Of a stretch of 64,000 bases of DNA, positions 26,723-39,745 are shown one piece after another. The first letter of the stretch is position 1. Every line of letters begins with the position of its first letter. This stretch comes from Thalassobius vesicularis (GTDB lineage Bacteria; Pseudomonadota; Alphaproteobacteria; Rhodobacterales; Rhodobacteraceae). Position numbers and translations under genes: made by a program. The notes under the pieces are model-generated. The model was not told the DNA's origin. It saw only the letters and a program-made list of their open reading frames with translations, and made no database searches. Location of the stretch: contig NZ_SSMD01000008.1 in the NCBI RefSeq assembly GCF_004799325.1, forward strand, positions 1-64,000. Reading direction: 5' to 3'.

Positions 26723-27535
26723 ATGGACACCGCAAGGTCACAGAATCTGAAGAAAGTGCTCGATGCCGTACCCGCCGGGTATCTGGTCGACGCGGCATGG
26801 CTCGTCTCGCAGGGCATCGCCTATGAGAGCTTCCGTGACTATGTGAAACGCGGCTGGCTGGAGCGCATCGCACGCGGTGTCTTCCGCCGACCAGTCCCGA
26901 ATATGCAGGCGTCCAACAGCATCGACTGGAAGACCTGCATCCTTTCGATGCAACATATCATGGGTCATGATCTGCATGTCGGGAGCACAACGGCACTCGG
27001 TGAACAAGGACATGCCCATTACCTCCGCCTGGGGGAAAGCGCTCCAGTCTGGGTCTATGGGGACAAGGTCCCGAACTGGCTGATCAAACTGCCGACGGAT
27101 GCCCCTTTCAGTATCCGCCCCCGTTCCTTATTCACCGATCCGAAGCTGGGCGTGATCGAGGGCAAGAATTCTGGCCTGCCATGGGACTGGGGTCTGACGA
27201 TGTCGACGCCGGAGCGCGCAATCCTGGAAGCCATGGACGAGTTGCCCCACCATGAGAGTTTCCACACGCTCGACATGGTCTTCGAGAGCCTGACAACCCT
27301 GCGCCCAAGGCTGATTTCCGACCTCCTGCAAGCGTGCCAGAAAATCAAGGTCAAGCGCCTGTTCTTCGTCTTCGCGGACCGCCACGATCATCCCTGGCGC
27401 AAACGGATCGACCCGCAGGCATTCGACCTCGGCAGCGGCGACCGAGCCTTGATCCAGGGCGGCAAGATCCACCCGCGCTATCGGATCATGGTGCCAGAAG
27501 AATTCGTGAAACCGGAGGCCGAAAATGGCGCGTGA
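26723..27535 (+). CDS. abiEi: AbiEi-type antitoxin
   Basis: 270 aa. The N-terminal winged helix is clear: VPAGYLVDAAWLVSQGIAYE and YVKRGWLERIARGVFRRP, the pattern of AbiEi and related transcriptional-regulator antitoxins of type IV systems. The C-terminal part, with STPERAILEAMDELP, is the AbiEi_3-like domain. It precedes and overlaps the toxin gene by 11 bases. AbiEi represses its own promoter and counteracts the toxin without direct contact. Confidence 0.85.
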   Translation: MDTARSQNLKKVLDAVPAGYLVDAAWLVSQGIAYESFRDYVKRGWLERIARGVFRRPVPNMQASNSIDWKTCILSMQHIMGHDLHVGSTTALGEQGHAHYLRLGESAPVWVYGDKVPNWLIKLPTDAPFSIRPRSLFTDPKLGVIEGKNSGLPWDWGLTMSTPERAILEAMDELPHHESFHTLDMVFESLTTLRPRLISDLLQACQKIKVKRLFFVFADRHDHPWRKRIDPQAFDLGSGDRALIQGGKIHPRYRIMVPEEFVKPEAENGA

Positions 27536-28442
27536 GACCTATGAAGCCCAGGTTGCGCTCCTGGTGCGCGTCCTGCCCAATGTCGCGGGCGAAAGCGTCT
27601 TCGCGCTCAAGGGCGGGACGGCCATCAACCTCTTCCACCGCGACCTGCCTCGGCTGTCGGTCGACATCGACCTGACCTACCTGCCAATCAAGGAACGCGC
27701 CGAGAGCCTGGACGAGATCAACGCCGCGATGGATCGCATCGCGGCTTCCATCGAGACCGGAATCCGAGGCGCGAAATCGCAGCGCATCCAAGGGGGCGGC
27801 GGCGGAGCCACCCGGCTCCTGGCGCGTCTCGGGAATGCCGAGATCAAGATCGAAACCTCGCCCGTGACCCGGGGCGTGGTCCACGACCCGGAAGTCCGGA
27901 CCGTCTCTGTCGCCGTGGAGGATGCCTATGGCTATGCCGAAATGCAGATCGTCTCGTTCGAGGACCTGTTCGCGGGAAAGCTGCACGCCGCCCTGGACAG
28001 GCAGCATCCCCGGGATCTCTACGACGTCACACTCCTCTACGAAAACGAGAGCCTGACGCAGGACCTGTTCCACACCTTCCTGATCTATGTCGCCAGTTCG
28101 CCGCGACCGGCGCATGAGCTGCTCGATCCGAACCTGATCGATCTCGAGCAACCCTACGCGCGGGAATTCGAAGGCATGACCAGAACACCCGTCCCGCTCG
28201 CTACGCTTTTGGCGACGCGCCTCAAGTTGGTCGCCGATCTGCAATCGAGGCTCGATGACAAGGCGAGGCAGTTCCTCCTGACGCTTCAGGACGGCGAGCC
28301 TGACTTCGCGGCGATCGACCGTTCGCAGGCCGCTGACCTACCGGCCGTGAAGTGGAAACTTCTCAACCTGAACAAACTGAAGCGCGACAACCCCGAAAAG
28401 CACGCAGCGCAGCGCGACGCCTTGTTGAAGCTCCTGGGTTGA
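27525..28442 (+). CDS. abiEii: AbiEii-type nucleotidyltransferase toxin
   Basis: 305 aa. It begins near residue 26 with FALKGGTAINLFHRDLPR and LSVDIDLTYLP, the nucleotide-binding GG-x9-12-S-x-DxD motif of AbiEii/DUF1814 toxins; FEDLFAGKLHAALDRQHPRDLYD, the second conserved motif, follows near residue 150. Such toxins transfer nucleotides to targets such as tRNA and give abortive infection or plasmid stability. All motifs look intact and the antitoxin is adjacent, so the pair is probably active. Confidence 0.88.
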   Translation: MARETYEAQVALLVRVLPNVAGESVFALKGGTAINLFHRDLPRLSVDIDLTYLPIKERAESLDEINAAMDRIAASIETGIRGAKSQRIQGGGGGATRLLARLGNAEIKIETSPVTRGVVHDPEVRTVSVAVEDAYGYAEMQIVSFEDLFAGKLHAALDRQHPRDLYDVTLLYENESLTQDLFHTFLIYVASSPRPAHELLDPNLIDLEQPYAREFEGMTRTPVPLATLLATRLKLVADLQSRLDDKARQFLLTLQDGEPDFAAIDRSQAADLPAVKWKLLNLNKLKRDNPEKHAAQRDALLKLLG

Positions 28443-28737: not shown

Positions 28738-29439
28738 TTAGCTGACAGCCGCAATCGAGTAGTGCGGTGTCCCATCCCAAACAAGATCCCAAGACGCGCC
28801 CGGACGAACGTTCTGAATTGCGTGGGGCTCGAAGCAGACCAGGCAATTCCCGCCCGGTGCAGGAGCCCGGACCGAAGGGTAAATCAGGCCCTTGGATCCG
28901 CCCCGACGCAGATGCTGTGCCAGGCTTTGGCCCTCGGGATACCCGACAGCCGGATCCGGATGCAGCGCCGGATGACCTGCCTCATCGGTCATGTCATCGA
29001 AGACGCCGATGAAGTCGGCCAGCAATTCCACATAGCGGGCGCTGTCGTGGAAGCTGCCGGTAAAGCCGAGTTCGCGTGTGCGGTGCCAGGCCACTTCGCT
29101 GACAGAAACCATCACATCCCATGCGCAGTACCACGCGCCGCGCTCCTCGGCGTTGAAGCGGTTTCCGCCGGCGCGGGTGTAGGTGAAGGCGGCATTGACA
29201 TGACTGTCGCCATAGATGCGGAGATCGCGGCTGCGGCGTTGCCAAGCGAGTTCGCGCGGGTCCAGATGCGGGTTGCGCCCGCGTTCGGCCTGTAGACGTC
29301 CACTGGTCAGGCCCTCGATCTCTGCCAAGATATCCATCTCGTCATCGGAATCGACGAGACCGCGCAGCGATGGCGGTTTGTGGTAGGTGGCGGGCAGGAG
29401 GCGAACGAGACCGCGATCGGAAATCTCGGTCTGCTTCAT
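28738..29439 (-). CDS. RES-domain toxin
   Basis: 233 aa. The family's R-x-S-type residues are in LVRLLPATYHKPP and GGNRFNAEERGAWYCAWDV (Arg, Glu, Tyr, a typical RES stretch), with EVAWHRTRELGF and YPSVRAPAPGGNCLVCF farther on. RES toxins degrade or modify NAD+ and arrest growth. The gene overlaps the stop of its Xre/DUF2384 antitoxin (ATGA at 29436-29439). No damage is seen. Confidence 0.88.
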   Translation of the reverse strand: MKQTEISDRGLVRLLPATYHKPPSLRGLVDSDDEMDILAEIEGLTSGRLQAERGRNPHLDPRELAWQRRSRDLRIYGDSHVNAAFTYTRAGGNRFNAEERGAWYCAWDVMVSVSEVAWHRTRELGFTGSFHDSARYVELLADFIGVFDDMTDEAGHPALHPDPAVGYPEGQSLAQHLRRGGSKGLIYPSVRAPAPGGNCLVCFEPHAIQNVRPGASWDLVWDGTPHYSIAAVS

Positions 29440-29825
29440 GCCCCACCACGCAACGCATCAAGATAGGTCCGAACCGCGAGGATCTGCGGCAAACCCCCGT
29501 CGATGGCGGTGTCGACTGGTCGGCTTCCACCAAAGAGCGGCCCCTTGTTCGGTCGGGTGAACCAGCTTTTTGCCAGAGGCTCCGAGAAGTAGAGTTCGAG
29601 CGACTTGAAGATGCCAATTACAGCGCTGAGCCGCAGCAGTTGGTCCTTGGTGAGCTCTCCGGCGAAATCCGGCTTCTTGGCGCGCTTCCACGTGCTCTCT
29701 GACATGTCGGCAAGGCCAGCCGCTTCCTTGAGACTGAGACCCCAAGCATCGGCCACGCGTGCATAAGCTTTCAACGCGACAGCGTTGATCTGTGCGGGTT
29801 CCCGGATTTTCTCTGCAACGTACAT
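29436..29825 (-). CDS. Xre/MbcA/ParS-type antitoxin (DUF2384)
   Basis: 129 aa from the ATG at 29825, preceded by GGAGG. An N-terminal helix-turn-helix (WGLSLKEAAGLADMSESTW) is followed by a DUF2384 toxin-binding domain with LRLSAVIGIFKSLELYF, WFTRPNKGPLFGG and the GGLPQILAVRTYLDAL tail. The antitoxin-first order and overlap with the RES gene make it the partner of that toxin and the probable autorepressor. Confidence 0.88.
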   Translation of the reverse strand: MYVAEKIREPAQINAVALKAYARVADAWGLSLKEAAGLADMSESTWKRAKKPDFAGELTKDQLLRLSAVIGIFKSLELYFSEPLAKSWFTRPNKGPLFGGSRPVDTAIDGGLPQILAVRTYLDALRGGA

Positions 29826-29902
29826 GGCGTCCTCCATTGGCTTCAATATAGTCCATATGGACTTAATGTAAAGATCAAATGAACCTTGCGCTTTGATCTC
29901 TG

Positions 29903-33417: not shown

Positions 33418-34617
33418 TCAACCAACGCGGTCGAGAAGCTTCTTGGCGCGCCCTTCCATATCAAGGCGGGCGTCCTGCTGGGTCTTGTCGCGCGCAAGCC
33501 GGGTAATCCCCTGCACGAAATCGAAGATGCTCTCGGGCGGGCGGCCTTCCTCCATCAGCACCTTCTCGATGATCTTGCCGGATTCGGCTTTCGAGAAACC
33601 GCGCTTACGCAGGAAATCCGCGCGGTCCTCATCGCCGCGCGCCACGATCTGCTGCCGCGCCGCCTTGATCCCGTTTACGAACCCCTGCGGCGAGGAATTG
33701 GCAAACCGCGTCAACGCGGGCGCCGCCTCATGTGCAAAGCGCGAGGCGGCGTATTTCGAGTGACGGATCTTGATCTCTTGGAAGTCCTCGACACCCCAGA
33801 GATTGCGGTTCTGGCACACCGCCCGCAGATAGAAGCTCGCCATACCAAGGGTCTTCGCGCCCACCTCGGAATTCCAGCAATAGAAGCCCCGGAAATAGAG
33901 ATCGGGGGAGCCGTCGGGTAACTTGCCTGCTTCGATCGGATTGCGGTCGTCGACCAGGAACAAGAAGACGTCGCGGTCCGAGGCGTAGAGCGTGGTCGTG
34001 TCGCGACTGATTTCGACATCGGGGTTGTAGACCCCGGTCGACCAGTCGAGCACACCCGGCACCTTCCAGCGCGTATCGCCCGTGCCATTGCCCGCGATGC
34101 GCTGCACCGCCTCGACAAGCTCGAAGTCATGGATGCGACCGTAGTCGGGACCGGTCACGGCGCGCAGTTCGGTCCGGCCGTCTTCCGTCTCGAAAGTCTT
34201 CACCTGCTCGGCGCGGTGGTTGGTCAGGCCGTATTGCAGGTTGATCCCCGCCAGCGGCGCGGGCAACTGCCGCAGGTAGGAGGCCGGCGCGCCGACGATG
34301 CTGGAAAGCTGGCCAAAGGCCCAATGCGTGGGCGCGACCGGCTCATGCGCTTTCGGCAGCATCAGATGCAAGCGCTCGGGGTTATCGCGCGCGGCCTCTA
34401 CGCGGATGTCCGCCGTCTGCACCACGCGGCTGCGGCTGCGCTCGGAGCGACTCTTCACATTGGCCCAGAGATCGTCGAGCGACAGATACCGCTCGTCATC
34501 CGGCCGGTTGAACCATTCGGACGACACCCGCCCGTTCCGCTCACCCCGGCTTACATCCACTTTCCAGCCACCAGCCCGCGCCGGCTGAACCGGATCCAGA
34601 ACTTCCACAACGCCCAT
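33418..34617 (-). CDS. DUF932 family plasmid protein
   Basis: 399 aa, the usual length. Characteristic segments are MLPKAHEPVAPTHWAFGQL, GLTNHRAEQVKTFET, RDVFLFLVDDRNPIEAG and RGFYCWNSEVGAKTLG. DUF932 proteins are very common on conjugative plasmids and phages and are thought to act in DNA processing or replication; the biochemical role is not known. A GACGG/CCGTC leader precedes it. It ends the module below the Hsp70 operon. Confidence 0.85.
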   Translation of the reverse strand: MGVVEVLDPVQPARAGGWKVDVSRGERNGRVSSEWFNRPDDERYLSLDDLWANVKSRSERSRSRVVQTADIRVEAARDNPERLHLMLPKAHEPVAPTHWAFGQLSSIVGAPASYLRQLPAPLAGINLQYGLTNHRAEQVKTFETEDGRTELRAVTGPDYGRIHDFELVEAVQRIAGNGTGDTRWKVPGVLDWSTGVYNPDVEISRDTTTLYASDRDVFLFLVDDRNPIEAGKLPDGSPDLYFRGFYCWNSEVGAKTLGMASFYLRAVCQNRNLWGVEDFQEIKIRHSKYAASRFAHEAAPALTRFANSSPQGFVNGIKAARQQIVARGDEDRADFLRKRGFSKAESGKIIEKVLMEEGRPPESIFDFVQGITRLARDKTQQDARLDMEGRAKKLLDRVG

Positions 34618-34631
34618 CAGCTATCTCCCGC

Positions 34632-34671
34632 GACGGGCGCCGGGAGCCACTCTCCCAGCCCTCAACCCGTC
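34632..34671 (-). promoter_or_regulatory. structured 5' leader of the DUF932 gene
   Basis: Outer arms GACGGG (34632-34637) and CCCGTC (34666-34671); inner hairpin GGGAG (34642-34646) / CTCCC (34652-34656) with a five-base loop. It is very close in sequence to 45568-45608 and keeps the fold of 32740-32777. A GGGAGA ribosome-binding site lies between it and the ATG. Confidence 0.65.
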
Positions 34672-34802
34672 ACCGGGAAACCGGCACGCCTCTCACTCTA
34701 CAGACGAACGGCGGCGGACAATGATGCGGTATAAACGTATCCAACCACCGCCTGAATGACGTAGCCTTGTGTTTTGCGTTCTCCTAAATGGCGAGAAACG
34801 GT

Positions 34803-37319
34803 TTAAGAACCCAAAAGATGTGCTAGCTCGACAATGTCGGCTGCATCAGCGCCCGTGGACACTCTGTTGCTCATCATTTGACCTATCACGTATCTTAGCC
34901 GATCTACATCACCGGCCTTAGCAGCTTCTACGCCAGCAGCGACAAGTTGTTCGTGCAGCCCCTCGTCAACGACCAGATGCCTCTCTGTTGCAAGAAGTTT
35001 CAGAATCTCGATCAAGAAATCTGGGGTTTCCGCCAGGACTTTCATTCGGATGCCATGCATTTCGCCCAGCGATCGTCGCGCGGAATCGAAATTCTTCTCA
35101 CGAATTGACCGACGCGCCGTGACAAGCAGCTTGTCATGTCGTTCCGCATCGACGGGCTGTGCCACATTCCTCAACTCATCAAACGACAGCTCGGCCTTGG
35201 CAGCCTCATCCGCCAGCACACGTTCTTCATTCTCAGGGGACATCTTCAATAGAGCAACGTCCTGGCGCAGTTTCCGGGCTTCCTCGGCTACGGAACGATG
35301 GGTGTCAGCATCCACAGAGGTGGATAGCGCCGCATGCTGCCGCTCGATACGTTTCCGAATGCTACCGGACGGGTCAGGATCGTGCTCCAATGCACTTTCA
35401 AGCTCTTGCAGATCACTTTCTACCCGAGAAAGCATTGTTGCCGCGACTTCTGCGCCCCGTTCACCTTCGTAGTTTATCCCACCGTCGTCATGGCGATAAA
35501 GATTCGAAGCGTCAATTATCCTGCCAAGAGCAGGCAGTTCGACAGCAAAGCTCAGCGTGCCATTGTCACTCATCTTCCAGTCAATAATGAATTCGTCGCC
35601 GCGGTTGATCCGCTCTCCCCGCTCCAACTCATCTAGGCTGTTCAGGCGGAAGTTGCCGATGTGAAGATTGTGTTCCGGGCTGTCTACGTCATCCGCCATG
35701 TCATAGAACTCTACCGCAATGAAGTCATCTTCCCCGCCAATGAGCGTTTTGCCAGAACGAAATTTCTGCCGACCTTGCGCTGGCAGCGCAGTTCCCTTCT
35801 TGACCAATACGTCCAGCTTGTTTCGCTCATACCCAACCATGCCATGTTGAACTTTCACGGCCAGGTTGTAGGTCATCGGAACGCTAGCCGCGCTGGCTTC
35901 GGCTCGCGTAATGCTGATTTCTCGTGAAGCGCTTTCAACCTTGCTACCGGTCTGGTCGAAAACGTTGACCATGTATCGGTTCTTGCCGTTCTTTCGAACG
36001 CTAACACCAACGTTTAGCGGACCGTTCAACGGTATCCGACCAGAAGACGAGCCTTCTTCATCAAGGATTTCGAGTTCAAAGCCACTGGGAATTTCGCCCG
36101 CAGGTTTAACCCGGATCTTTGTGCTTTCGGACGAGACGCGGGACTTAAAGTCCAACGAAAGACTGATGTCACCTGTGACTGTTTCCCGGTGCTTTGATGT
36201 TTTCTGAGTGGAGCTGTTACCTTCCCATTCTCGGCTCTCAGCAAATATCGCCGCACCGGTGGCAACGGCGGTCATGGGGTCCAGTCCGCTATCTACAGCA
36301 ATAGCAAGTTCTGCTTCCAGCATCTCCCGGATGATGGGCATCTTCGAAGGTCCGCCGATCGGCACAATCTTCGATATGTCTTCGTTCTTGTAGCCGTTTG
36401 CGGCGATGATCTTTCGACACAAAGCAATTGAATCTTCGATCCGGTCGCGAACCAGTTCAGTCATCTCGTCGCGGGAAAGGTCGATAGAGATGTAAATCTC
36501 TTCGCCGTTTTCATCAGTAGCACGCACCTCATCTTCAGTGGCAAAGATTGAAGCTGTTTCAGATGCAGACAATTGGATTTTTGCCTTTTCAGCTGCGTGT
36601 TTGCTGACATCGGCAAGATGCTTGTATCTCTCGTCGGCCTGAAAATTGGCTGGCAGGCTGAAATTATGCGAAAGCCATGGCCGGACGACGCTATCGAAAA
36701 TAATCCTGTCGAAGTCTCTGCCGCCGAGCATATTGATGCCCTCGTGGGCAACAACGTTAACAACGCCAGCGGTACTCATCACGAGGGCGAGGTCGAATGT
36801 CCCGCCGCCAAGATCATAGATAAGGAAAACGCCGTCTTTCTGCTTGCTGTTGGAGATTGCGGCCAAAGCGGCAGCAACCGGCTCTTGCAGCAGGCTGACC
36901 TTTTCCAACCCTGCGAGCCGCGCGGCTGAAATAGTGTCCTCGCTCTGCATCTGATTAAACGCGGCCGGTGTGGTAATGACTACGCCTTCGATTTCTTGCG
37001 AACCGGCCTCAGTCATGGCCTGGCCAACCAACGTTTTGATGATCTCTGCCGAGCACTCCACCGGGGTCCAGTTCTCCCCAGCTAGGGCAATTGGATTCTT
37101 GGTTCCCATGGAACGCTTAAAGCCATGCGCGACATTCTTTGGCGCAGAGAGCAAACGGTCATAGGCCGTCTTTCCGATGAACCGGTGTCCGCGCTTATCC
37201 AGGTAGATAACGCTTGGCAGCACATCGGTGCCGTCGGCAGTCTTAAAGAGACGGAGCGCCCCATCGACATGCCCAACAACAGCAGAGTTCGATGTTCCGA
37301 GATCGATACCTAGATACAC
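34803..37319 (-). CDS. divergent Hsp70 (DnaK-like) ATPase
   Basis: 838 aa, longer than DnaK (about 640). It starts at a GTG at 37319 with GAGGA upstream. The ATPase domain is intact: GIDLGTSNSAV (phosphate 1), FLIYDLGGGTFDLAL near residue 170 (phosphate 2) and IVPIGGPSKMPIIREML near 325 (adenosine). Residues about 380-510 form a substrate-binding-like beta region; a second beta-rich part with YDMADDVDSPEHNLHIGNF and a long helical C-terminus follow, without the DnaK C-terminal tail motif. It is the last gene of a J-like/GrpE-like/Hsp70 operon with lower GC than its surroundings. A dedicated, possibly defence-related chaperone is inferred. Confidence 0.9.
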   Translation of the reverse strand: MYLGIDLGTSNSAVVGHVDGALRLFKTADGTDVLPSVIYLDKRGHRFIGKTAYDRLLSAPKNVAHGFKRSMGTKNPIALAGENWTPVECSAEIIKTLVGQAMTEAGSQEIEGVVITTPAAFNQMQSEDTISAARLAGLEKVSLLQEPVAAALAAISNSKQKDGVFLIYDLGGGTFDLALVMSTAGVVNVVAHEGINMLGGRDFDRIIFDSVVRPWLSHNFSLPANFQADERYKHLADVSKHAAEKAKIQLSASETASIFATEDEVRATDENGEEIYISIDLSRDEMTELVRDRIEDSIALCRKIIAANGYKNEDISKIVPIGGPSKMPIIREMLEAELAIAVDSGLDPMTAVATGAAIFAESREWEGNSSTQKTSKHRETVTGDISLSLDFKSRVSSESTKIRVKPAGEIPSGFELEILDEEGSSSGRIPLNGPLNVGVSVRKNGKNRYMVNVFDQTGSKVESASREISITRAEASAASVPMTYNLAVKVQHGMVGYERNKLDVLVKKGTALPAQGRQKFRSGKTLIGGEDDFIAVEFYDMADDVDSPEHNLHIGNFRLNSLDELERGERINRGDEFIIDWKMSDNGTLSFAVELPALGRIIDASNLYRHDDGGINYEGERGAEVAATMLSRVESDLQELESALEHDPDPSGSIRKRIERQHAALSTSVDADTHRSVAEEARKLRQDVALLKMSPENEERVLADEAAKAELSFDELRNVAQPVDAERHDKLLVTARRSIREKNFDSARRSLGEMHGIRMKVLAETPDFLIEILKLLATERHLVVDEGLHEQLVAAGVEAAKAGDVDRLRYVIGQMMSNRVSTGADAADIVELAHLLGS

Positions 37320-37322
37320 AGC

Positions 37323-37700
37323 CTATTCCTCTTCTTGTTCAACTGGCGCAACGATCACGCGCCCTAGCCGGATAACAGTCATGTCGGACATGACTGTGGG
37401 TTCTATTGTCTTGCCAACGACAAGTGCTTCATCTTCTTCAAAATCGCCTGAATTATCGACCGAAACCGCCAAGCCAGGATGGAAACGCTCACCTGAAAAG
37501 TCGACTAGTCTCAACCCCAAATCTTGGAGGAGGACGTCCAACTGGCGTTTGGAGAATTTCAACTGCGCCTCTAAGCGCTTTCCATCACTGGCAAGTACGC
37601 CACTCAACGCTTTCTCAGTCGCAGCCGCAAGCTTCCAGTATTCGACACAGAGTTGAGCAACGCTTTCAATTTTCATGTCATTTTTTCCACCATCTACCAT
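37323..37700 (-). CDS. GrpE-like nucleotide exchange factor
   Basis: 125 aa; an inner ATG at 37676 (MKIESVAQ) is also possible. A short N-terminal helix leads to a domain with LGLRLVDFSGERFHPGLAVSV, then VVGKTIEPTVMSDMTVIRLG and RVIVAPV. This follows the order of the GrpE beta-domain (GE-x-FdP..., then ...vlRpA.V.V). GrpE releases ADP from Hsp70; a small cognate version beside a divergent Hsp70 makes sense. It overlaps the upstream gene by 7 bases and ends 3 bases before the Hsp70 start. Confidence 0.72.
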   Translation of the reverse strand: MVDGGKNDMKIESVAQLCVEYWKLAAATEKALSGVLASDGKRLEAQLKFSKRQLDVLLQDLGLRLVDFSGERFHPGLAVSVDNSGDFEEDEALVVGKTIEPTVMSDMTVIRLGRVIVAPVEQEEE

Positions 37701-39613
37701 GAGGCAACAATCCTTCGTGCATCCGCCGTGAATTCAGCGGTTTTTCCTTGTGCTTCTCGGCGCACTGAACTCAGCACACCGCTTGTGTATCGGAAATTTG
37801 AGCACCTCGAATTGTAGTCATCAATGAGCGCATTAAACTGGCTGATCTGATAGTTCGTTGTAGTCAAAGACCTCATAGCCTCGAGCCGCTCGCCCTGAAA
37901 AACACAATATCGCACTTGTGCTCTGTTCAGAGCGAGGCCTTGACCAACAGGTGGCCTTGTTTCGGCGCTTGTATTTGAACTTGGGCTAGTTGTGGTCTGC
38001 CGTGGTGTCGAAGGCTGATAAGTGGTTGTAGGCTGGTAGGATGTTCGTGAGGTGGGCCTATCAAGTTCATCGGAAATAACAAAGAAACCAATGACAGCCG
38101 CGATACCGCCATAGATCAACCACTTTACTTTTTTGCCAGCTTGCTTGCGCTCAATCCTTGACTTCAGCTGCACCAGTTCGGCGCGATCATTGCCCTTTGC
38201 GTATTTGAGCATTTCATCGACGACCTTCGCCATTCCGCCGAGATTGCCCGACTGCCGATCCAATTCTGGCATTTTCCAGTTGCGATGCAGCACGGACCGC
38301 TCTTCATCAAGTTTACTACTCACATCTTGGGACGGTTTCGCTCCGCGATACGTGATCAGCCCGTCGACCAACCTGAAAGCCGTTTCAGGGTCATTCCGAT
38401 CGTTGTTCACGAACAACGCAAGGTCTCGAACAACAAGGAATGCAGCATCCCCGGTGCCTGGAGCTTTTGCAGCGGTATCGAACGCTGCAAAGATTTCTTT
38501 TACGGCCCCCTTACGCGCTGGTACAAAGCCTGAACTTTGCAACGCCGACTTCAGCTTCGGAACTTGTGATTTGGCGGCCTCACAAGCGGCAACAAGCGGC
38601 TCCAGCACTGAAAACTTCTTCTGCTGTTCATCGAGGTTCTCCAGCGCCTCGACATCACCCTTGAGCACCTCAGCAACTGATTCCAGCTCTGGAAACGTGT
38701 GCAACAGCGCTTCAGACAAACGCTTTGCGTGACGAAACTCGCCTCTTTCGTTCGCGAGCTCGAGGCATAGCGATCGAAGTCTTTCGTAGATTTGCTTGGA
38801 CCGACCTTCTTCATGTCCTTGATGCTGCTCAAATACTTGAACGGGCTGGTTGACATCATCCCACTGCCGCAGGAGTTCAGCGATTTCACTCGTCACGGCC
38901 TCTAGCTGTTGTCTCGGTTGACGGGCAAGTTCGATCTGCTGATCAATAGCTTCACTAATCCTCGCCAGGCGGGGTTCGCTCAAGATATCGTATTCACGAA
39001 CAAATTCGGCCAATATTCTGCTTGCCCGGTCCCTCTTTAGCTCCGCCTCAACTAGCCTCTCCATCACCTTTCCGGGTTCATCCAATCGCCACACGGACAG
39101 CGCAGCGCTTCGCGCATGAGTGCTTTCTAGAACTCTGATCGACGCCGCAAGTTGGCTGCTTTCGATTTTTGGGAAGTCGGCCGCTTGGCGCTGAGAATTT
39201 AAGAATTCCAATAGAGCCAACTGATCAACATCATCCCAAGCACGAAGTAGGTCTTGCAGGAGCGTTTCGTCCGCAGATTCGGTGCCACACAAATGCGCGA
39301 GAACGTTGGCCTTTGGCAAATCGGGGAGAAATGCAATTGCTTCACGGAGATCGGTTATCTTCCCCGCCTCCAACAAGGAACCAATCTCATTAATTTGCGT
39401 AGTGCTGAGCTCTGGCAGCCAACTTAATTCTTGATCCAGGCGGGCAATCGGGGACAGCAGGGCCTGCTGAGATCGCTGAATGATTTCTTGAGAATGTTGT
39501 TCATCGAACTCAGCATCCTCGACTAGATCGGAAATCTCAGCGTGGTTTGATGCATAACCGGCCTTTAGAATTGAAAATGCGTTCAAGAAAATGCTGAAAT
39601 TCGCGCTTTCCAA
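37694..39613 (-). CDS. J-domain-like membrane protein of the Hsp70 operon
   Basis: About 639 aa from a TTG at 39613 with AAGGA six bases upstream; the frame is open to 39664. The N-terminal 70 residues (SIFLNAFSILKAG, QQALLSPIARLDQELSWLPE) resemble degenerate J-domain modules found next to bacterial Hsp70 genes, without the HPD triad. A long helical repeat-like region follows, then one membrane helix (WLIYGGIAAVIGFFVIS, near 495-513), a Thr/Pro/Ser linker and a periplasmic domain with VRYCVFQGERLEAM and FNALIDDYNSRCSNFRY, whose two Cys may pair. It likely brings the Hsp70 machine to the membrane. Confidence 0.7.
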   Translation of the reverse strand: MESANFSIFLNAFSILKAGYASNHAEISDLVEDAEFDEQHSQEIIQRSQQALLSPIARLDQELSWLPELSTTQINEIGSLLEAGKITDLREAIAFLPDLPKANVLAHLCGTESADETLLQDLLRAWDDVDQLALLEFLNSQRQAADFPKIESSQLAASIRVLESTHARSAALSVWRLDEPGKVMERLVEAELKRDRASRILAEFVREYDILSEPRLARISEAIDQQIELARQPRQQLEAVTSEIAELLRQWDDVNQPVQVFEQHQGHEEGRSKQIYERLRSLCLELANERGEFRHAKRLSEALLHTFPELESVAEVLKGDVEALENLDEQQKKFSVLEPLVAACEAAKSQVPKLKSALQSSGFVPARKGAVKEIFAAFDTAAKAPGTGDAAFLVVRDLALFVNNDRNDPETAFRLVDGLITYRGAKPSQDVSSKLDEERSVLHRNWKMPELDRQSGNLGGMAKVVDEMLKYAKGNDRAELVQLKSRIERKQAGKKVKWLIYGGIAAVIGFFVISDELDRPTSRTSYQPTTTYQPSTPRQTTTSPSSNTSAETRPPVGQGLALNRAQVRYCVFQGERLEAMRSLTTTNYQISQFNALIDDYNSRCSNFRYTSGVLSSVRREAQGKTAEFTADARRIVASW

Positions 39614-39745
39614 AGTATTATCCTTCAAGTTCAAGATCACGCCCGGCTGGCAGGCTCCCAACAAGTGGTGCGGTTTGGTTGTAGTGCATCATCGGGCAGG
39701 CTTCATCCGAATTCCAGTCGGAGTTTTTGACTTGCGGTAGTACGC

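Follow-up and report, generated by a model that had tools for sequence, protein, structure and literature searches.

A putative mobile Hsp70 cassette with its own GrpE-like factor and J-like membrane protein, and its probable role in bacterial defence

What does a plasmid-borne Hsp70 operon do in a genome whose housekeeping DnaK, a DnaJ and one GrpE are located on contig C1? We addressed this question for three open reading frames (ORFs), here called A, B and C, that lie within positions 34803-39613, all on the minus strand, of a window of 64,000 nucleotides from Thalassobius vesicularis (contig NZ_SSMD01000008.1, positions 1 to 64,000). A sequence-only reading had placed a membrane-anchored Hsp70 operon at this position, and the ORF listing confirmed its extent and put it on the minus strand. 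The evidence described below, from co-inheritance, profile and structure comparisons and gene neighborhoods, suggests that the trio is a self-contained Hsp70 machine that spreads horizontally, is anchored in the inner membrane and most likely serves to defend the cell against phages or other mobile elements; we give this reading a probability of about 0.6. The cassette and its genes are as follows.

34803..37319, minus strand: gene C, an 838-amino-acid (aa) divergent Hsp70 (Pfam HSP70, E 7.8e-60)
37323..37700, minus strand: gene B, a 125-aa minimal GrpE-like nucleotide exchange factor (hhalign against GrpE, Foldseek)
37694..39613, minus strand: gene A, a 639-aa predicted membrane protein with a J-like head, a helical-repeat arm, one membrane span and a periplasmic Cys domain (ORF)
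about 34749..39687, strand not applicable: the cassette common to several genera (blastn blocks)

Gene A was read from a TTG at 39613 to its end at 37694, with an upstream AAGGA spotted by eye; an alternative in-frame TTG at 39664 would give a protein of 656 aa. Gene C starts with a GTG at 37319. The genes had been described as three overlapping ones, which holds for A and B (7 bases) but not for B and C, which are separated by a gap of 3 bases. The lower GC content ascribed to the block was borne out: it is 52.2% GC, compared to 62.2% in the remaining window, and lies below all 592 sliding stretches of equal length in the window. No convincing family match was found for A or B in Pfam, NCBIfam or PADLOC, nor for A among PDB sequences, and PADLOC 2.0.0 (2023) gave no convincing model match for A, B or C (best, 18.1 bits). 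Since the same trio was found in dozens of genomes, the operon is not a product of chance.

Co-inheritance and mobility of the trio

We compared the best 80 of 267 genome relatives. A- and B-type genes both lie beside C in 59 of these 80 genome loci, B alone in 4 and neither in 17, and the spacing between B and C falls within -30 to +40 bases in 66 of the 69 loci that have both. The three genes are thus conserved together elsewhere. The 21 loci without a full trio comprise 15 that we call the solo group, 5 contig-end cuts (in L026, L071, L081, L082 and L095 a contig end lies on the side where A or B could lie) and 1 rearranged locus; in L043 the start of C is missing and an unrelated gene is joined there.

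The cassette appears to move without its surroundings. When the whole window was compared by blastn with the 80 genome loci and 4 plasmid loci, no alignment longer than 250 bases was found outside 34260-39737, in agreement with the earlier description of the operon as transferable cargo. The aligned blocks were 34810-37662 plus 38186-39600 (L017), 34749-39651 (L019), 34810-39687 (L020) and 34260-39737 (L018). Operon identity was 97.9% in Falsigemmobacter, 92.0% in an Aestuariivita metagenome-assembled genome and 89.4% in Halovulum, and the Thioclava operon aligned in two pieces, 94.4% and 87.6% identical. Near-identical operons in four genera with unrelated flanks point to a cassette that moves alone. 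Its distribution is sparse: a survey of the class gave matches in 3 of 385 genomes (T. vesicularis included, one of them a weak partial match), and a survey of relatives gave 1 of 195, T. vesicularis itself. Six relatives were found on viral contigs, one with ORFs of A-B-C sizes, and 39 records of a phage collection matched, none across 80% of C. In Sinorhizobium medicae T10 (L009:703-16688), the C gene is split by an ISNCY element. We conclude from these sequence comparisons that the trio is co-inherited and travels as a cassette.

The setting of the operon raises another explanation, that it is a helper of plasmid replication or conjugation that remodels initiator or transfer proteins at the membrane. 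The replicon carries RepC, a ParB-domain gene and a ParA-type gene in RepABC order together with a VirB4-type gene, and the operon lies near these RepABC-type and plasmid maintenance genes in the window. The host DnaK/DnaJ/GrpE machine, too, reportedly remodels the P1 initiator. However, cassettes that are more than 88% identical have no replication or transfer gene in common in their 10-kb flanks, and relatives occur in other replicons and on chromosomes, so that we regard this explanation as very improbable. The window also holds two toxin-antitoxin pairs: an AbiEi/AbiEii type IV (abortive infection) pair at 26723-28442 on the plus strand, about 6 kb from the operon, and a RES-domain/Xre pair at 28738-29846 on the minus strand.

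Two related forms of the cassette were seen. In the solo group, 14 of the 15 C genes are in the tree (L045, L048, L049, L051, L052, L053, L056, L059, L060, L061, L063, L067, L068 and L076) and branch together as a single clade (support, 0.999) in the midst of branches that carry the trio; L088, too short for the tree, was assigned to the group, and L051 is cut upstream as well. Some solo-group neighbors looked epimerase-like or Hsp20-like by eye. A GrpE-like gene upstream of solo C was considered and rejected, as the small upstream genes tested gave E values of at least 0.09 against B and at least 0.35 against GrpE; a better upstream score, E 0.0036, came only from the distant plasmid locus L015, where the A-B-C layout is judged by gene sizes only. 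The solo group may be a domesticated form of the same Hsp70. The second branch has the order B, C, an AAA ATPase and then J-like or peptidoglycan-binding proteins, and its hosts are Aeromonas and Shewanella plasmids (in a Tn7-like element), Vibrio, Polaromonas and Escherichia coli HeN100. In the Aeromonas and Shewanella plasmids (L007:7456-19082 and L006), the variant is Tn7-like cargo with a gene tail that has no clear Pfam match.

A rewired Hsp70, a minimal GrpE and a J-like membrane protein

The divergent Hsp70 was divided into three regions.

36210..37319, minus strand: C residues 1-370, Hsp70 nucleotide-binding domain; catalytic residues and GrpE-signature stretch kept, equivalents of R167, N170 and T173 replaced
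35904..36167, minus strand: C residues ~385-472, Ig/filamin-like beta domain where the canonical interdomain linker is expected (alignment; weak PDB matches)
35520..35822, minus strand: C residues ~500-600, substrate-binding beta domain (PDB sequence matches)

C exceeds the Pfam HSP70 cut-off and falls short of the NCBIfam DnaK equivalog cut-off (211.7 versus 822.55 bits), and it is far below the HscA cut-off as well. Among 84 aligned C rows, which include L001 (a copy of the window gene) and L043 (start missing), the equivalents of the DnaK residues K70, E171, D194 and T199 are kept in 84/84, D8 in 81/84 and T11 in 80/84, which upholds the earlier description of an Hsp70 with intact ATPase motifs. 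The PDB sequences matched by the substrate-binding domain were Hsp70s in 49 of 50 cases (E up to 1; best E, 7.8e-4), and the Ig-like domain of about 90 residues gave weak PDB sequence matches, filamin included (E 0.09-0.9). By its sequence, C is an Hsp70 that retains both the ATPase residues and a substrate-binding domain.

The surface that faces the J-protein is a different matter. R167, N170 and T173 are named among the DnaK residues for DnaJ binding or stimulation in the cited part of PMC4022485, and R167 is described as contacting the aspartate of the HPD motif (PMC8215388). These three residues are retained in all 20 DnaK sequences compared (of 21 fetched) and in all 4 HscA/HscC sequences, and in none of the 84 C rows; likewise, the linker motif LLLDVTP is present in 20/20 DnaK and 0/84 C rows. 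Conversely, the stretch that holds the GrpE-signature loop is 69-71 residues long in the 20 DnaK sequences, 63-64 in the 4 HscA/HscC sequences and 73 in 81 of the 84 C rows. In HscA and HscC, then, it is the J side that survives and the GrpE side that has been lost; C shows the reverse, as its operon partners would predict. Identification of C as DnaK, HscA or HscC was rejected on the equivalog cut-offs and these residue patterns.

Comparison of B (55 homologs) with 29 alphaproteobacterial GrpE sequences, the number left after a length cut, gave an hhalign probability of 94% and E 1.1e-7, the alignment running collinearly through 111 columns. Column shuffling never produced so good a score in 200 trials (best, 28.2 versus 50.2), and the cross-comparison of profiles with J-domains was null. 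The AlphaFold model of B, with a predicted local distance difference test score (pLDDT) of 88.4, has the helices followed by a beta wing that make up the GrpE fold. Its first 12 PDB matches in Foldseek were all GrpE (E 0.0072 to 0.43), the others being noise; as these E values never reach 0.001, it is the ranking that carries the point. The Pfam GrpE family was the commonest weak match among the 55 members (8/55; best E, 0.002), although the window protein itself gave no Pfam GrpE match and the gathering score was not reached. B lacks the long N-terminal paired dimerization helix of GrpE, since its first helix spans residues 5-33 only and the alignment begins at GrpE column 104 of 236. We conclude that B is a predicted minimal GrpE, as the sequence-only reading had proposed.

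Three regions of A are of interest here.

39416..39592, minus strand: A residues ~8-66, four-helix J-like head without the HPD loop and with an acidic helix II (hhalign, charge, HPD count)
38072..38128, minus strand: A residues ~496-514, predicted transmembrane span, N terminus inside (hydropathy; 6 K/R in the flank before, 2 after)
37694..37951, minus strand: A residues ~555-639, helical domain predicted on the periplasmic side, containing Cys570 and Cys604 (Cys conservation, model helices)

The A head aligned with J-domains at an hhalign probability of 47%, E 1.9e-4 and a score of 24.1 (53 heads versus 44 J-domains, after exclusion of the wrong-frame J rows L131 and L142 and of two wrong A rows), and none of 300 column shuffles did as well (best, 16.0). 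Earlier runs that included two wrong rows per set gave the same picture, with the HPD tripeptide in 0/55. An 11-residue gap falls at the position of the HPD loop, the tripeptide is present in 0/53 heads, and helix II has a mean charge of -4.6 (acidic) in A heads versus +2.6 (basic) in J-domains. In the AlphaFold (AF2) model of A (pLDDT, 84.7), the head helices 12-16, 24-37, 42-53 and 55-64 follow a J-like order. An ordinary J-domain was rejected because HPD is absent and Pfam DnaJ gave no match at E 0.01 in 41 A members. Foldseek with the full-length model placed no J-domain among the 50 matches listed, which were TPR/HAT-like and other helical repeats. The J-like head that had been claimed thus stands on its profile and helix order and finds no echo among the fold matches listed. 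We consider the J-like call for the model and profile of the A head supported but not proven: the profile score is modest, and the call falls short of proof because no fold-library match to a J-domain was seen.

C-terminal to the head, A has a run of helical repeats, a single membrane span whose flanks follow the positive-inside pattern, and the two-cysteine helical domain, a layout that the homologs have in common. The mean Kyte-Doolittle (KD) value of the span exceeds 1.6 in 35/41 homologs, and Cys570 and Cys604 are each present in 34/41 rows, 4 to 5 of the remaining rows being gaps. A relationship of A to Rad50/SMC or JetC was rejected, with 11 to 19 bits only. A is thus a predicted single-span membrane protein whose J-like head lacks HPD.

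Defence genes around the cassette

We scanned the genes flanking the cassettes with PADLOC. The flank set was drawn from the nearest 126 of 211 eligible ORFs, at 48 of 62 candidate loci in which the Hsp70 is less than 93% identical; 9 were removed by hand (5 genes judged to belong to the AAA-variant operon, 3 running off the contig and 1 second transposase frame), leaving 117 proteins from 42 loci, some AAA partner genes among them. The control set held 118 T. vesicularis proteins, namely all 88 ORFs on the rest of contig C8 and 30 of the 186 found in stretches of seven further contigs. At E<=1e-60, 22 models were matched by at least 8 of the 117 flanking proteins, a lower count taken from model names, with the DinG helicase left out and ThsB grouped with the TIR models. 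The models matched were MkoC (Mokosh), type IIG restriction-modification, DrmMI, JetC and JetD (Wadjet), BilD, TIR effector/PycTIR, PycC, LmuA, ThsB and DinG.

The assignment of models to flanks was resolved for 9 of the 10 longest flanking proteins, which were scanned singly; 7 of these 9 matched at 1e-10. Near full-length matches were obtained to MkoC (1214 bits, L042), the type IIG enzyme (1544 bits, L077) and JetC (725 bits, L085). The best PADLOC match in the control was 3.1e-24, which bounds the control at 1e-60. The difference of 8 flank versus 0 control proteins has a Fisher p of 0.003, a test that treats proteins as independent. At E 1e-10, 140 models are counted for the flanks and 8 for the control, a tally that was set aside as inflated by many GajB models on the same helicases; the scan at 1e-60 was used instead.

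Individual loci gave a similar picture. In the window itself, the operon has the AbiEi/AbiEii and RES/Xre pairs in its vicinity. The five-gene AAA variant of E. coli HeN100 (L231:14002-20785) lies in a chromosomal island with RdrB (RADAR), a DptF remnant and CbtA/YeeU, and the Polaromonas variant has ZorA and BrxD nearby. In Haliscomenobacter (L016:9060-14870), a distant Hsp70 relative with AAA and TerB genes lies beside BrxL, PglZ (BREX) and SIR2. A restriction endonuclease and Fic/VbhA adjoin a Sinorhizobium locus, and the S. medicae T10 trio (L009) has caspase-like, S8 peptidase and MBL-fold genes upstream and a methyltransferase nearby. The Aminobacter and Pseudomonas hygromyciniae plasmid loci had no such clear defence neighbor. 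The defence role that had been called plausible thus gains support from the HeN100 island and the PADLOC flank scan.

Another explanation for these data could be that the trio is a mobile module for the envelope or for protein quality control. Its Hsp70, tethered to the membrane, would help membrane proteins, secreted proteins or conjugative proteins to fold or assemble, and the cassette would be carried for its fitness benefit and play no part in immunity. In favor of this are the chaperone nature of the parts, the likeness of the arm of A to helical repeats, the periplasmic Cys domain of A and the peptidoglycan-binding proteins of the second branch. Moreover, the plasmid that carries the operon is of the RepABC type and has a VirB4-type gene, and the solo group looks chromosomal. 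However, the cassette travels without plasmid or conjugation genes, occurs on chromosomes and in a Tn7-like element too, is patchily distributed, and has unrelated known defence systems in its flanks. We consider this explanation unlikely, though it is the foremost of the alternatives.

Several observations weigh against a defence module. No effector domain (toxin or nuclease) was recognized in A, B or C. Some flank matches come from one locus and are hence not independent. All control proteins belong to a single genome and the flanking proteins to 42 loci, so that the two sets are not matched for mobile-region background, and no difference between them could be established when proteins are counted at E 1e-10. 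The E. coli survey, 1 of 5426 genomes, was by DNA similarity only. In the 15 solo loci, C occurs without detectable A or B, several times in ordinary-looking chromosomal surroundings, and because the solo group shows the same loss of J-facing residues, this loss is not tied to A alone. R167 is also credited with a further role in Hsp70 interdomain allostery in the cited part of PMC4022485. To these is added the modest profile score on which the J-likeness of the A head rests. With these points set against the neighborhoods, defence appears the best-supported role, on neighborhood support that falls short of proof.

Relation to known systems and proposed mechanism

The closest precedent is itself a prediction, the Hsp70/GrpE/DnaJ-FNIII theme of the GAP1-N2 GTPase conflict systems (Kaur et al. 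2020, PMC7159879). As described there, that theme resembles the trio in combining an Hsp70 with a dedicated GrpE and with a partner that bears J or TPR elements, in a predicted near-membrane chaperone conflict system; compared by description, it differs in being GTPase-centered, found mostly in actinobacteria and firmicutes, and equipped with a named DnaJ domain. The hosts of the trio are mainly proteobacteria, and its J-like head lacks HPD. One could suppose that C and B set a threshold or act as regulators within a larger conflict system, gating an effector supplied by variable neighbor genes, as has been proposed for this theme. Such a role would fit the published prediction of Hsp70 and GrpE alongside a fusion of an FNIII protein with DnaJ or TPR (PMC7159879, as outlined there), the AAA+ partner and extra genes of the second branch, and the Ig-like insert in C. 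GAP1-N2, however, was matched in 0 of 20 genomes or records, and near-identical cassettes are surrounded by unrelated neighbors, making a gating role rather improbable. Membership in a GAP1-N2 system was likewise rejected, since none of the 20 holds a GAP1-N2 component.

Other systems share single traits with the trio. CnuD of CoCoNuT is homologous to the Hsp70 nucleotide- and substrate-binding domains and is placed among antiviral genes; its Walker-type motifs are described as degenerate and its partners as McrBC/HEPN, and the main text does not mention GrpE (PMC11090510), whereas C keeps its ATPase residues and the operon encodes a GrpE. The housekeeping DnaK/DnaJ/GrpE machine, as presented in PMC8215388, follows the same logic of ATPase chaperone, J-type partner and exchange factor. 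The trio departs from it in the loss of HPD, of R167 and its neighbors and of the LLLDVTP linker, and in its Ig-like insert, membrane anchor, minimal GrpE and accessory distribution. HscA and HscC are, like C, bacterial Hsp70s distinct from DnaK, and in the 4 compared they are its opposite, with R167/N170/T173 kept and the GrpE-signature stretch shorter. Pam16 and trypanosome Pam18-type proteins are described as membrane-anchored J-like domains without a working HPD; they resemble A by description and are mitochondrial (PMC11349236). For bNACHT25, an Hsp70-system component is reported to take part in phage sensing, but there it is the host housekeeping DnaJ and not a private machine (PMC12169576). 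Among the titles and abstract openings of open-access literature on the trio or on Hsp70/GrpE/J-domain defence parts, the trio was not found described. We conclude that the trio is a variant of predicted chaperone-based conflict systems with an unexpected rewiring between Hsp70 and J-protein. With a GrpE-like fold in the model of B and co-occurrence both found, the overall interpretation of the sequence-only reading is supported.

How such a defence module would act can be sketched only tentatively. The anatomy points to a scaffold in the membrane that holds C, with B as the private exchange factor resetting its cycle. A bold version, which we hold less likely than not, is an orthogonal immune Hsp70, in which an infection-sensing membrane scaffold would drive the cycle of C by a new form of coupling, insulated from the host chaperones. 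In the defence reading in general, the periplasmic Cys domain or the helical arm of A would sense an infection event at the envelope, and A would present its J-like head to C through an interface that no longer uses HPD. At the membrane, C would bind a foreign protein that is entering the cell or still being synthesized, or else a trigger protein of the host, and B would reset the ATP cycle of C. The loss of HPD in A, together with the loss of the matching residues and of the linker in C, would insulate the module from housekeeping DnaK, DnaJ and GrpE. In the second branch, the AAA+ ATPase and further J-like or peptidoglycan-binding proteins would extend the machine. The end effect could be arrest of the foreign particle or shutdown of the cell.

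The unexpected rewiring of the interface between Hsp70 and J-protein makes the module worth experiment, and the E. coli variant makes phage tests easy in laboratory strains. If the defence reading is true, the known parts of bacterial immunity would be joined by a chaperone cycle that is complete, driven by ATP and equipped with a dedicated exchange factor. The trio would also provide a natural pair of Hsp70 and J-like protein that works without HPD, in which the rule that J-proteins need HPD in order to act could be put to the test.

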